Assembly: GCF_003482105.1 (NCBI RefSeq)
Contig: NZ_QULM01000004.1
Coordinates: 199,518 to 249,487, forward strand
Reading direction: 5' to 3'
Source: Coprococcus sp. OM04-5BH
GTDB lineage: Bacteria > Bacillota > Clostridia > Lachnospirales > Lachnospiraceae
Length of the DNA stretch: 49,970 nt
Position 1 is the stretch's first letter; the number at the start of each line of letters is the position of its first letter. The translations under genes and the position numbers were made by a program. Of the stretch, positions 4,331 through 49,970 are shown piece after piece. The notes beneath the pieces were generated by a model that searched no databases, had not been told where the DNA came from, and saw nothing but the letters and a program-made list of their open reading frames with translations.

Positions 4331-4359
4331 GATTTAAAAGATAAAAACTAAATAAATTG

Positions 4360-4392
4360 CCATGCCCAAGGTGCATTGTGCCTTGGGCATGG
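4360..4392 (+). terminator. Strong intercistronic hairpin after the secreted-protein gene
   Basis: CCATGCCCAAGG (4360-4371) and CCTTGGGCATGG (4381-4392) form a perfect 12-bp stem with a 9-base loop. The following sequence is not a T run, so it may act as an RNA-stabilising hairpin or partial terminator, setting different expression for the gene before it and the genes after it. Confidence 0.6.
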
Positions 4393-4456
4393 TCAGTGTT
4401 ATTAAAAGTCAATATATTGTATTTAGTGCATATTTAGAAGGTGAAAGGATGGGGCT

Positions 4457-5707
4457 ATGAGGAAAAAAATAATTATTATATCATGTGTAATTTTAGGAAT
4501 ACTGCTTATTGCTACCGGAGTGTATGTAATTCCACGATTGTTGAGGAGATTTCCTGATAAGGCGGCATATGCAACTTATTTAAAATGCTACAGTGAGGAC
4601 GGGCTGTATTATAAGAAGGGCAATAAAATATATTTTCTTGATGCAGATACCCATAAGAGTGCCGTGGTGTGTAGTAAGGCTAATTGTAATCACGATTCAG
4701 AGGACTGTAATGCCTATATTGAGGGTGCCAACATGTTCATGTATTATGATGGCTATGTGTATGTATCAAGTTTTGTAGTTGATGCTAACTCCGATAATGG
4801 TGAAGTTGAGTTTTTCGGTGGGGCAAGGTTGGATGGCATATCCTGTGATGGATCAAAGAGGGTGAATATATATAACGCTGATTGCGGGGCTGTTTTGTCT
4901 GTAAAGGCGATAGACGGGGATATTTATTTCACAGCGTATAAATTCAGAAATGAAAAGGATTTTACAGATCCGGTGCATGATAATTATCTGTATAAGTATG
5001 ATCTGAGATGGAACAAGAGTACATGCTTGTATGAATATAATGACGATTCGGAGAGCCAGTATAGTTCGGCATTAGAGATTGCAGAGGGGGATTCGAAGAA
5101 TATATATATACAACATAGCTGGTGTACCGATAGCAGTGGCTCAGAACCCGATATAAATGTTGATCTTTTTAAACTGGAAGATGATCAGATGCAGCTTTTG
5201 GATAGTTGGGAAAATGTTTATTGGATAAATGTTTTGGATAATGAAGAGTATGGAATTGCATCTGTAAAGGGGCAGGAAGAAGATGCAGATACGATCATCT
5301 ATGAATTTAAAGACGATAAGATTGGTGAAACTGAGCTGATGAGGATAAAAGATGGATATGGAGATATTATGCATGAATACATAAGTGTTGTGAACACAGA
5401 TTATAAAAAACTGCTTTATGATATAAAAAATAATAAATACTACATAGCGAATACCACATTTACAGAAGAGGGAACGTATATCTCCGATGTGCATGATATT
5501 GACGAAGAACATAACAGGATATACATAGATAATCATGATTATACAGGAATGTTGCCTGGAACTGTTTATACTGAAGATATGAGTGATTATGGCGTGGTGG
5601 ATTTTGATGTGTTCAGAGACACCTTTTACACAGAACTTGATGATCTCACAGATGAGCAGAGAAAGCAGTTTGATGCTATGGATTGGATAGTTATCGGGGA
5701 AAGGTAG
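4457..5707 (+). CDS. Membrane-anchored extracellular protein with Cys/His motif, beta-propeller-like
   Basis: A 416-residue protein with one N-terminal transmembrane segment (about residues 4-26) and a large, acidic, presumably extracytoplasmic domain. It carries a compact motif, C72-x4-C77-x-H79-x4-C84 (CSKANCNHDSEDC), which could bind metal. Repeated short Y/I-Y-F strands followed by D/N-G turns (IYFLDAD, GDIYFTAYK, YLYKYDL) suggest beta-propeller-like blades, reminiscent of DUF5050-type proteins that sit beside ABC transporters in Lachnospiraceae; that comparison is from memory. The ABC ATPase follows after about 25 bases, so the three genes probably form an operon. The function is unknown; an accessory, sensor or immunity protein for the exporter fits the context. 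Confidence 0.65.
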   Translation: MRKKIIIISCVILGILLIATGVYVIPRLLRRFPDKAAYATYLKCYSEDGLYYKKGNKIYFLDADTHKSAVVCSKANCNHDSEDCNAYIEGANMFMYYDGYVYVSSFVVDANSDNGEVEFFGGARLDGISCDGSKRVNIYNADCGAVLSVKAIDGDIYFTAYKFRNEKDFTDPVHDNYLYKYDLRWNKSTCLYEYNDDSESQYSSALEIAEGDSKNIYIQHSWCTDSSGSEPDINVDLFKLEDDQMQLLDSWENVYWINVLDNEEYGIASVKGQEEDADTIIYEFKDDKIGETELMRIKDGYGDIMHEYISVVNTDYKKLLYDIKNNKYYIANTTFTEEGTYISDVHDIDEEHNRIYIDNHDYTGMLPGTVYTEDMSDYGVVDFDVFRDTFYTELDDLTDEQRKQFDAMDWIVIGER

Positions 5708-42440: not shown

Positions 42441-42714
42441 TGTCAAGTTTTATATGAAAACTTGACATGCAGCGTCAGCCCTTTGCGGAGAGGAGGTCCC
42501 CATGCATCGTAGATGCATATAAAATGGTCCCGACGATATGCCGCCGAGAGATTGTGCCCATGCGTTGAAAACGCATATTTGAATGGCACAATCGACTTGC
42601 CGCCGAGTGTACACGAGGGGGCGTTACCCAGAGATTGTGCCCATGCGTTGAAAACGCATATTTGAATGGTACAATCGACTTGCCGCCGAGTGTACACGAG
42701 GGGGCGTTACCCAT
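42441..42714 (+). repeat. Structured repeat element, tandem copy (purN-purD intergenic)
   Basis: Parts in order. Hairpin H1: TGTCAAGTTTT (42441-42451) with AAAACTTGACA (42457-42467). Linker TGCAGC...CCCTTTGCGGAGAGGA. Hairpin H2a: inner stem ATGCATC/GATGCAT (42502-42518), then a truncated GCCGCCGAG (42540-42548). After this come two tandem 83-base units (42549-42631 and 42632-42714) differing at one base. Each has an outer stem ATTGTGCC/GGCACAAT, an inner stem ATGCGTT-gaa-AACGCAT, then GCCGCCGAGTGTACACGAGG-GGGC (H3), which folds on itself through G-A mismatches, and GTTACCC. The element lies in the leader of purD and could affect its expression. Confidence 0.8.
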
Positions 42715-42717
42715 AAT

Positions 42718-42754
42718 GGGAGGGGGCAATACCTATGAAGGCAAATTTTAAATG
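42718..42754 (+). repeat. Diverged copy of the GAGGGGGC...AAATGG flank repeat
   Basis: GGGAGGGGGCAATACC (42718-42733), then AAGGCAAATTTTAAATGGG, matches the flanking repeat at 48665 and 48825 (GAGGGGGCAATACC...GGCAATTTCAAATGG). This suggests that the element family extends to within 40 bases of the purD start. Confidence 0.6.
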
Positions 42755-42794
42755 GGCTGATATTCAGCTGATGTTTAAAGGAGGAAGATGTCAT

Positions 42795-48664: not shown

Positions 48665-48712
48665 GAGGGGGCAATACCAAACAGGCAATTTCAAATGGAT
48701 GCTGCTCTATTT
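48665..48712 (+). repeat. Flanking direct repeat, left copy
   Basis: GAGGGGGC-aata-CCAAACAGGCAATTTCAAATGG-a-TGCTGcTCTATT. It recurs with few changes at 48825-48872, exactly 160 bases on, so the structured element lies between (and overlaps) two direct repeats, as for a transposed or duplicated unit. Confidence 0.8.
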
Positions 48713-48715
48713 ATT

Positions 48716-48837
48716 GTAATGATGTCTGAGACATCGTTACGTTGCAGCAACCCTTGCCGTAGGAAGCACCAAGTGTCGAAGACACATTTAGAATGGTGCT
48801 GACGACTTGCCGCCGAGTGTAAACGAGGGGGCGTTAC
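48716..48837 (+). repeat. Structured repeat element, single copy (radA-pilin intergenic)
   Basis: H1: GTAATGATGTC (48716-48726) with GACATCGTTAC (48730-48740). Linker TTGCAGCAACCCTTGCCGTAGGA. H2: outer stem AGCACC (48765-48770)/GGTGCT (48795-48800), inner GTGTC-gaa-GACAC (48773-48785). Then GACGACTT and H3: GCCGCCGAGT (48809-48818), loop GTAA, ACGAGGGGGC (to 48832), with mirrored G-A mismatches; ends GTTACC. Same order as at 42441-42714, but with different sequences in H1 and H2 arms that remain complementary. Confidence 0.8.
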
Positions 48838-48872
48838 CAAACAGGCAATTTCAAATGGTTGCTGTTCTATTC
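48825..48872 (+). repeat. Flanking direct repeat, right copy
   Basis: GAGGGGGC-gtta-CCAAACAGGCAATTTCAAATGG-t-TGCTGtTCTATT; pairs with the copy at 48665-48712. Here AACAGGCAA and TTGCTGTT could also form a hairpin. Its first bases are the right arm of H3. Confidence 0.8.
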
Positions 48873-48971: not shown

Positions 48972-49577
48972 TTGAAAGAAAGAAATAATAAAGGTTTTAC
49001 TTTGGTTGAATTAATAGTGGTGCTTGTTATACTGGCTATTCTTGCTGCCATTCTTGTACCTGCCTTGCTTGGCTATATAGATAAGGCAAAGGATTCACAG
49101 GATATATTAGCTGCCAAGAACATTATGACTGCAACACAGTCTAAGATGGCTGAGGCTTATGCCGAAGGTGGAGTTGCACAGGCTTCCAATGTGGCTGTTA
49201 ATGCCAAGAACAATGATGTGTCTCTTATAGGGACAGATTTTGCAAATGATATACTTAAGACGGCAGATGATGAGCCATATATGACAATAGTGGGGCTTGG
49301 AGATTATAATGAATATGGAAAGAACAGTGACATAAGCCAGAGACATAAAGCATATACTGTATATTTTGTTGTATACTGGAAGACGAAGGACTCTGATCCT
49401 TTGTTTTTTGATGGTACCAATTGGACTAAGACGTATCCGTGGAAGAGTAGCGGCGGCAATGTATTCATGGTAAAGGGTGAGAAGATTAAGTTACAGTTCT
49501 TTTTTCTTACGGCACCCAACAAGGCTAATCTGAGTGATAACTGGAACGAGCTCAAGGGCAAACTTAATATTAAGTAA
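48972..49577 (+). CDS. Type IV pilin-like protein (prepilin)
   Basis: 201 residues. A short basic leader (MKERNNKG) is followed by the class III processing site G8-F9 in GFTLVELIVVLVILAILAAILVPALLGYI; E at mature position 5 is present. The hydrophobic alpha-1 helix continues into the KAKDSQDILAAKNIMTAT helix, then a variable C-terminal globular part with Lys, Asp and aromatic residues. It should be cut and methylated by a prepilin peptidase and assembled by a pilus or pseudopilus machine, none of which is encoded in view. The start is TTG after GGGGTGATG. Neighbours are radA and a probable rRNA operon, so it is an isolated pilin gene. Confidence 0.85.
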   Translation: MKERNNKGFTLVELIVVLVILAILAAILVPALLGYIDKAKDSQDILAAKNIMTATQSKMAEAYAEGGVAQASNVAVNAKNNDVSLIGTDFANDILKTADDEPYMTIVGLGDYNEYGKNSDISQRHKAYTVYFVVYWKTKDSDPLFFDGTNWTKTYPWKSSGGNVFMVKGEKIKLQFFFLTAPNKANLSDNWNELKGKLNIK

Positions 49578-49688: not shown

Positions 49689-49764
49689 ATCACTTGCGCG
49701 GTCGAAAGACGCCGATCTTCGAATCAGGCCTGAGACATAAACGCAAAGGGAAATAAAAAAGTTG

Positions 49765-49793
49765 TTGACAGATGCTTCTAAATGTGATAACCT
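49765..49793 (+). promoter_or_regulatory. Tandem promoter P2
   Basis: AAAAAAGTTG precedes a perfect TTGACA (49765-49770), 17-base spacer, TAACCT (49788-49793). It shares the AAAAAAGTTGTTGACA...TAAATGTGATA frame with P3, 86 bases away, so one arose by duplication. Confidence 0.65.
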
Positions 49794-49850
49794 ATACAGG
49801 CTGTCGCAAGTGAGAAACACAGACGACAACAAAACAAAATAAAAAAGTTG

Positions 49851-49879
49851 TTGACAAACGGTTTTAAATGTGATATCTT
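49851..49879 (+). promoter_or_regulatory. Tandem promoter P3
   Basis: Perfect TTGACA (49851-49856), 17-base spacer, TATCTT (49874-49879). The stretch from here to 49970 has no gene and looks like a rRNA leader (A-rich, AACAACATGACAACCCTGAAATTTCTT near the end). The rRNA gene itself would begin beyond the window. Confidence 0.65.
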
Positions 49880-49970
49880 ATAAAAGTTGTTGCGAACGAA
49901 ATCGTGAAACAACAAAAACAAATGAACCATGAAAATTTAACAACATGACAACCCTGAAATTTCTTATAAA

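Follow-up and report, generated by a model that had tools for sequence, protein, structure and literature searches.

The covarying GA-cis hairpins of Lachnospiraceae are probably mobile DNA palindromes that settle in structured repeats, operons and protein genes

Two places in a 49,970-nucleotide stretch of the Coprococcus sp. OM04-5BH genome (hereafter the window), one between purN and purD and the other at 48.7-48.9 kb, carry the same series of hairpins, whose arms differ in sequence and yet remain complementary. This raises the question of whether the pairing reflects selection on an RNA or is a property of the DNA. A preliminary description, made from the letters alone, listed a hairpin H1, a linker, a hairpin H2 and a near-constant hairpin H3, and all of these parts were found, in the same order, in both composites. 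H1, the 5′ module of the surrounding repeat, is an 11-bp hairpin that is perfect at 42441-42467 and contains one G-T pair at 48716-48740, while the H3 loops are, as described, GTAC and GTAA. The H3 motif occurs three times in the window and was absent from each of 100 dinucleotide-preserving shuffles.

The description knew of no named family that matches these repeats. The H2-H3 core is, however, the Rfam family GA-cis (RF02987), with matches at 42488-42562 (36.4 bits), 42629-42715 (74.0 bits) and 48758-48842 (83.8 bits, E 9.5e-17), all above the covariance-model cut-off of 34.7 bits; GA-cis aside, no Rfam family exceeded its own cut-off in the window. The window copies share with the family the two hairpins and the tandem GA mismatches. 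An Rfam match is one of the outcomes that the description had named beforehand as refuting its proposal. The discoverers of GA-cis are said to have proposed a cis-regulatory role. Rfam types the family as ‘Gene; sRNA’, and its entry describes an RNA and, as far as it is visible, makes no mention of mobility, in-gene copies, nesting or DNA-type loops; a literature search turned up the name in one paper, on Rfam 15, which gives one added covarying pair for GA-cis.

The match at 42488-42562 reads as an interrupted copy (all parts of the composites are on the forward strand). Its 5′ half (42488-42543) comprises an imperfect H2, with two of the six outer-stem pairs mismatched in the Rfam alignment, and the start of H3, the 3′ half of which (GAGGGGGCAATACC; 42720-42733) ends as in intact copies. 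Two inner copies (42544-42626, repeat family D1, and 42627-42709) form an 83-bp tandem repeat of 98% identity; the former was matched at 42544-42629 by R1, a covariance model built from 25 in-gene copies, and the latter corresponds to the 74-bit Rfam match. When the interruption is read by eye, this tandem pair sits within H3 of the outer copy, a nesting of GA-cis in GA-cis that the description had overlooked. The second composite holds a copy at 48758-48842 with H2 arms AGCACCA/TGGTGCT and H3 at 48808-48833, while 48665-48711 is what remains of the tail of another composite (GAGGGGGCAATACC plus a host 3′ strand), a 91% repeat of 48825-48871 (family D9). A start like those of type IV pilins or pseudopilins (KGFTLVELIVVLVILAILAAILVPAL) is seen in the ORF directly after the second composite (48972-49577), and an 86-bp direct repeat at 49744-49915 (two copies, 72% identical) has in each copy a GTTGTTGACA-like sequence that is perhaps promoter-like.

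The description had also treated H1, the linker, H2 and H3 as one family, an order that is real but in which H1 and the linker appear to belong to a separate hairpin repeat around GA-cis. In both composites the linker can pair with a tail 3′ of H3, a feature that had escaped notice. The 5′ strand at 42476-42486 (CAGCCC then TTTGC) pairs with 42741-42759 (GCAAA ... GGGCTG), and that at 48745-48758 (CAGCAACC, TTGCC) with 48844-48864 (GGCAA ... GGTTGCTG). These duplexes have energies of -23.1 and -19.5 kcal/mol, respectively; 3/2000 and 1/2000 mononucleotide-shuffled tails were as good as the real ones, and swapping partners between the composites gave -12.2 and -13.1 kcal/mol. With two composites, these data do no more than suggest a host hairpin, for which Rfam returned no match at E up to 10.

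In relatives (G001, G466, G447 and L112), GA-cis copies were found with a 5′ hairpin, a linker and a tail of similar kind; there they lie in TwoAYGGAY (RF01731), the insertion point being the 3′ strand of its second hairpin. TwoAYGGAY is a different family (clan CL00106), likewise a structured repeat of the same bacteria, which has been tabulated as probably RNA and not cis-regulatory (PMC2864571). Three copies without GA-cis (L226, L234 and L236) scored 115-128 bits against its model and L228, with a match that spans an enclosed GA-cis, scored 97 bits; among further GA-cis-filled copies, L231 and L240 were just over the cut-off of 43 and several others were below it (16 of 18 loci were scanned here, the other two being the same places as L170 and L172, which were scanned separately). 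Because the analogous 5′ hairpin in relatives belongs to TwoAYGGAY, H1 was rejected as a part of GA-cis and, by analogy, most likely belongs to an unnamed host repeat that encloses GA-cis. The TwoAYGGAY copies of G001 and G466 (L225-L242, L170, L172 and L175) also display long outer inverted repeats, seemingly well beyond the Rfam model, that vary among copies of one genome and are still complementary. Nesting extends to a T-box leader of Butyrivibrio sp. VCD2006 (L044), in which GA-cis occupies 4510-4592 within a T-box match at 4347-4684 (108 bits) that is stretched to 338 nt for a 219-position model.

A genome scan with the H3 pattern identified at least 119 stretches, nearly all from records titled as Lachnospiraceae or Clostridiales; matches in Streptomyces and similar organisms were dropped as chance, and a match on a viral contig was not GA-cis according to Rfam. 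Eight carrier genomes contained from 1 to 66 copies, as lower bounds, and under stricter filters a GA-cis match was obtained in at least 18 of 250 genomes from the family, 17 of them over the cut-off. Comparison of 23 stretches of six sister genomes, in four syntenic regions of G006 and its sisters with 67-97% DNA identity, revealed an empty site in at least one relative for 23 of 31 parsed candidates. These collapse to 16 present/absent sites, one of which holds an irregular element; of the other eight candidates, one is a false positive, present in all the sisters compared, and the rest lacked a comparable relative or fell in an ambiguous gap. Sites A, B and G, the three that were measured, each show a net insertion of exactly 78 nt, and by our own reading the junctions replace 0-4 nt. 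Read by eye, target-site duplications vary among the sites (site A has none and site B has TCCAGA) and are not the fixed-length duplication of a MITE. The view that the repeats are ‘not mere copying’ cannot therefore be upheld, as they are mobile and have empty sites in sister genomes.

Copies less than 15 kb apart share 7.6 of 9 arm positions, compared with 4.9 for other pairs, a value reached in 0/10000 permutations, although the 10 near pairs are few and not independent and one of the 29 elements in the set (C31 71250) is a doubtful match, the underlying contig scan having also picked up matches that are not GA-cis. Neighbouring copies in the G006 and sister regions also have the same orientation, and this likeness in arms and orientation points to local spread. 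At site A an insertion common to two species has arms GCAGCTGCG/CGCAGCTGC in one and GCAGCAGCG/CGCTGCTGC in the other, a compensatory double change; as the copy at neighbouring site G has the same arms, conversion from that copy would be an equally possible origin.

GA-cis also resides within protein genes. Model R1 gave 36 matches in 1.14 Mb of G006, comprising 23 above 46 bits, which were used, and 13 weak ones, and in 21 of the 23 the match length leaves the same remainder on division by 3. Among the 22 copies mapped (L365 was left out), 21 lie wholly within predicted ORFs of at least 100 aa, 15 in antisense and six in sense, and one is intergenic. Of the 127 copies parsed from the first scan, 38 were well inside ORFs of 250 aa or longer, with 25 aa to either side. 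These comprise 22 antisense copies that encode an ETPPxxxSAA-like peptide, four antisense copies in another frame and 12 sense copies in three frames, and the element is thus open in five of six reading frames. Match lengths modulo 3 are distributed 67/17/3 in the in-gene group (n=87), frame being kept in 67, and evenly, 18/16/19, in the operon group (n=53); the groups were set by locus, not per copy, and truncated tandem units make up part of the 17. A survey of 15 host proteins, two of which had no family assignment, included MutS (insert between domains I and II, residues 163-187), MutL (between the N- and C-terminal domains, 426-450), MurD (within the Mur ligase middle domain, 309-333), PriA (517-540), RimO (436-460), farnesyl diphosphate synthase (29-52), a macrodomain hydrolase (162-186) and a sugar symporter (36-60). 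For the inserts in both MutS and MutL, sister genomes show the empty site. Genes that bear GA-cis also contain other short repeat or insert families (L146:5112-5205 and L146:2355-2487, e.g. GATCGTCCAGTGGACGATCGTTTAGCGCCG), which match many genomes of the genus.

The observation that hairpin arms differ and stay complementary holds far beyond chance in the wider family; in the window, the outer H2 stem of the 42488 copy is imperfect and the tandem copies, being 98% identical, are not independent evidence of covariation. In a first test 66 double-change cells were counted, compared with 19.4 after shuffling and at most 9 in slid controls; in a second test, with 135 distinct copies, the count was 677 compared with 190.8 and at most 109, respectively. 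Both the covariation score and the double-change count of the wider family exceeded all 500 shuffles. The covariation contains few G-U pairs. In an alignment that was fitted to the model, 2936 GA-cis pair cells comprised 2683 Watson-Crick pairs, 32 G·T (1.1%) and 36 A·C, whereas the 441 cells of 20 distinct tRNAs from the fetched sequences comprised 402 Watson-Crick pairs, 32 G·U (7.3%) and 5 A·C (Fisher p 2.6e-12 for G·U vs Watson-Crick, with sequences that are not independent). G-U is thus not tolerated over A-C overall, as it would be in a cis-regulatory RNA. The apical loops fit DNA mini-hairpins. C-GNA-G and GNAB are DNA mini-hairpin motifs, while GNAA is RNA-like. C-GNA-G accounts for 125 of 149 H2 triloops, and H3 loops of the common length (n=139), the third base of which was fixed by the search pattern for most loci, were GNAB in at least 83 cases and GNAA in 10 among the entries listed. 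The H2 tip of many in-gene copies is CGCGAAGCG, for which a calculated DNA melting temperature near 88 C has been given (PMC10527192); a literature search on GNAB found nothing with that word.

The reading that underlies the Rfam entry, in which GA-cis is a cis-regulatory element or sRNA and H2 and H3 control the downstream gene from its 5′ leader, draws on more than the ‘sRNA’ label. By our own reading many copies occupy the gap from a stop codon to the ribosome-binding site of the next gene, and operon copies show a slight G-U excess (12 G·T vs 5 A·C of 1101 cells), compared with 20 G·T vs 31 A·C of 1835 cells in the remaining copies. The predicted RNA fold is stable (z -2.6 to -2.9), although DNA folding energies fit too and the two were not discriminated. 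Set against this are the rarity of G-U pairs, the DNA-type loops, the many copies within ORFs, mostly antisense, and the state of the same gene junctions in relatives. Model R1, used in place of a degenerate H3 scan (5 substitutions) that proved unspecific, found GA-cis at 0/13 purN-purD loci (13 of the 21 loci read contained the junction and the remaining eight did not) and at 0/28 mraY-murD loci. The same model recovered a positive control, the GA-cis copy L121 of G001, a place at which G446, ~90% identical, has no GA-cis. At the two junctions tested the element is therefore not kept upstream of the same genes, as a cis-regulatory RNA would be. The mraY-murD gap of L389 and L412 holds a different hairpin, ending in GCGAAGCAAAATTAGGATG, that resembles part of H2 and was matched by neither R1 nor Rfam. 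We consider a functional RNA improbable as the explanation of the family. The description had allowed for selection on an RNA or DNA fold; the DNA alternative stands, but there is a better reading of the covariation than selection on an RNA. The balance of the data favours GA-cis as a non-coding mobile DNA palindrome that inserts in structured repeats, in operons and, in some lineages, in frame in genes, and this reading is probably correct.

According to this preferred reading, an element of ~75-90 nt with two hairpins, of which H2 has arms that vary yet match and H3 is nearly constant, inserts without a fixed target-site duplication into structured repeats, leaders and operon gaps and, in some lineages, also into protein genes, where only frame-preserving insertions persist, adding ~25 residues. 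Membership of the Rfam family, mobility, residence in frame, nesting, the lack of copies at the two junctions of relatives and a covariation poor in G-U pairs were all observed directly. The hairpins would act as DNA, either single stranded or as a cruciform, and would be recognized by a trans-acting enzyme or copied by template switching, both of which are candidate movers. One such enzyme, a transposase of the single-strand (HUH/Y1) type that acts in trans, as has been proposed for REP elements and for derivatives of IS200/IS605, is plausible without being probable. It accords with the hairpin structure, with the lack of a fixed target duplication, with the Y1_Tnp genes present in seven of eight carrier genomes searched and with a possible strand preference in G006, where 17 of 22 copies point against the local GC skew; orientation, however, also follows gene strand, which confounds that preference. 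In addition, none of 28 fetched Y1 loci (1.6-3.4 kb) held an H3-like motif, so that by this measure no RAYT-like gene is linked, and G466, which is rich in GA-cis, has no Y1 match. It is possible, but somewhat unlikely, that no dedicated transposase is involved and that template switching during replication copies a nearby element via short homology, keeping the palindromes perfect and so generating covariation without selection on RNA. Such switching is reported both to generate hairpin stems and to repair them, with compensatory changes at several bases (PMC8794818). The arms and orientation common to neighbours within 15 kb, the junctions that replace 0-4 nt and the double change at orthologous site A are consistent with this route, but the near pairs carry the limits given above, further copies occur dispersed over other contigs and in distant species, and gene conversion or local transposition would look alike. 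That the outer arms of H2 are instead copied from the target at each insertion can hardly be correct: a repeat of the 5′ arm region comes directly after some copies, but empty sites lack the arms, which come with the insert, and unrelated sites have arms in common, observations that refute the idea for in-gene copies. A fuller form of the copying model, in which GA-cis is a self-nesting DNA hairpin without its own transposase, local template-switching hops restore the palindromes and in-frame copies repeatedly add a peptide of 24-26 residues to essential proteins, among them enzymes of mismatch repair and wall synthesis, is offered as a tentative and rather doubtful proposal.

GA-cis has features in common with two groups of known repeats. 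REP/BIME with RAYT, and elements derived from IS200/IS605, are short hairpins without a fixed target duplication and with a possible single-strand route; REP are extragenic by definition and have a linked or dedicated RAYT. Short hairpins, the lack of a fixed duplication and the possible single-strand route are shared with GA-cis, near which, in contrast, no RAYT was found. To our knowledge, the only precedent for mobile palindromes in frame is from Rickettsia, and a literature search found no such report for Lachnospiraceae. Rickettsia palindromic elements are palindromic repeats that lie in frame in unrelated genes (PMC10969869); they are ~150 bp and known from Rickettsia, compared with the 75-90 nt of GA-cis in Lachnospiraceae. 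The likeness, judged by residence and not by sequence, is that GA-cis too resides in frame in unrelated protein genes, and we read it as working in the same way, although, unlike the Rickettsia elements, it is open in five of six frames and also lies between genes and in structured RNAs.

If the mobile-palindrome reading is true, a strongly covarying Rfam family would be mainly mobile DNA, and covariation alone would be no proof of a functional RNA; if template switching is the route, what looks like textbook covariation in a catalogued RNA family would be a signature left at the level of DNA. The count of G·U against A·C pairs and the type of loop would then serve as simple discriminators of RNA and DNA. 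The Lachnospiraceae would provide a case of mobile palindromes in frame within essential genes, and the dense present/absent polymorphism among sister species makes the mechanism of transposition directly testable.
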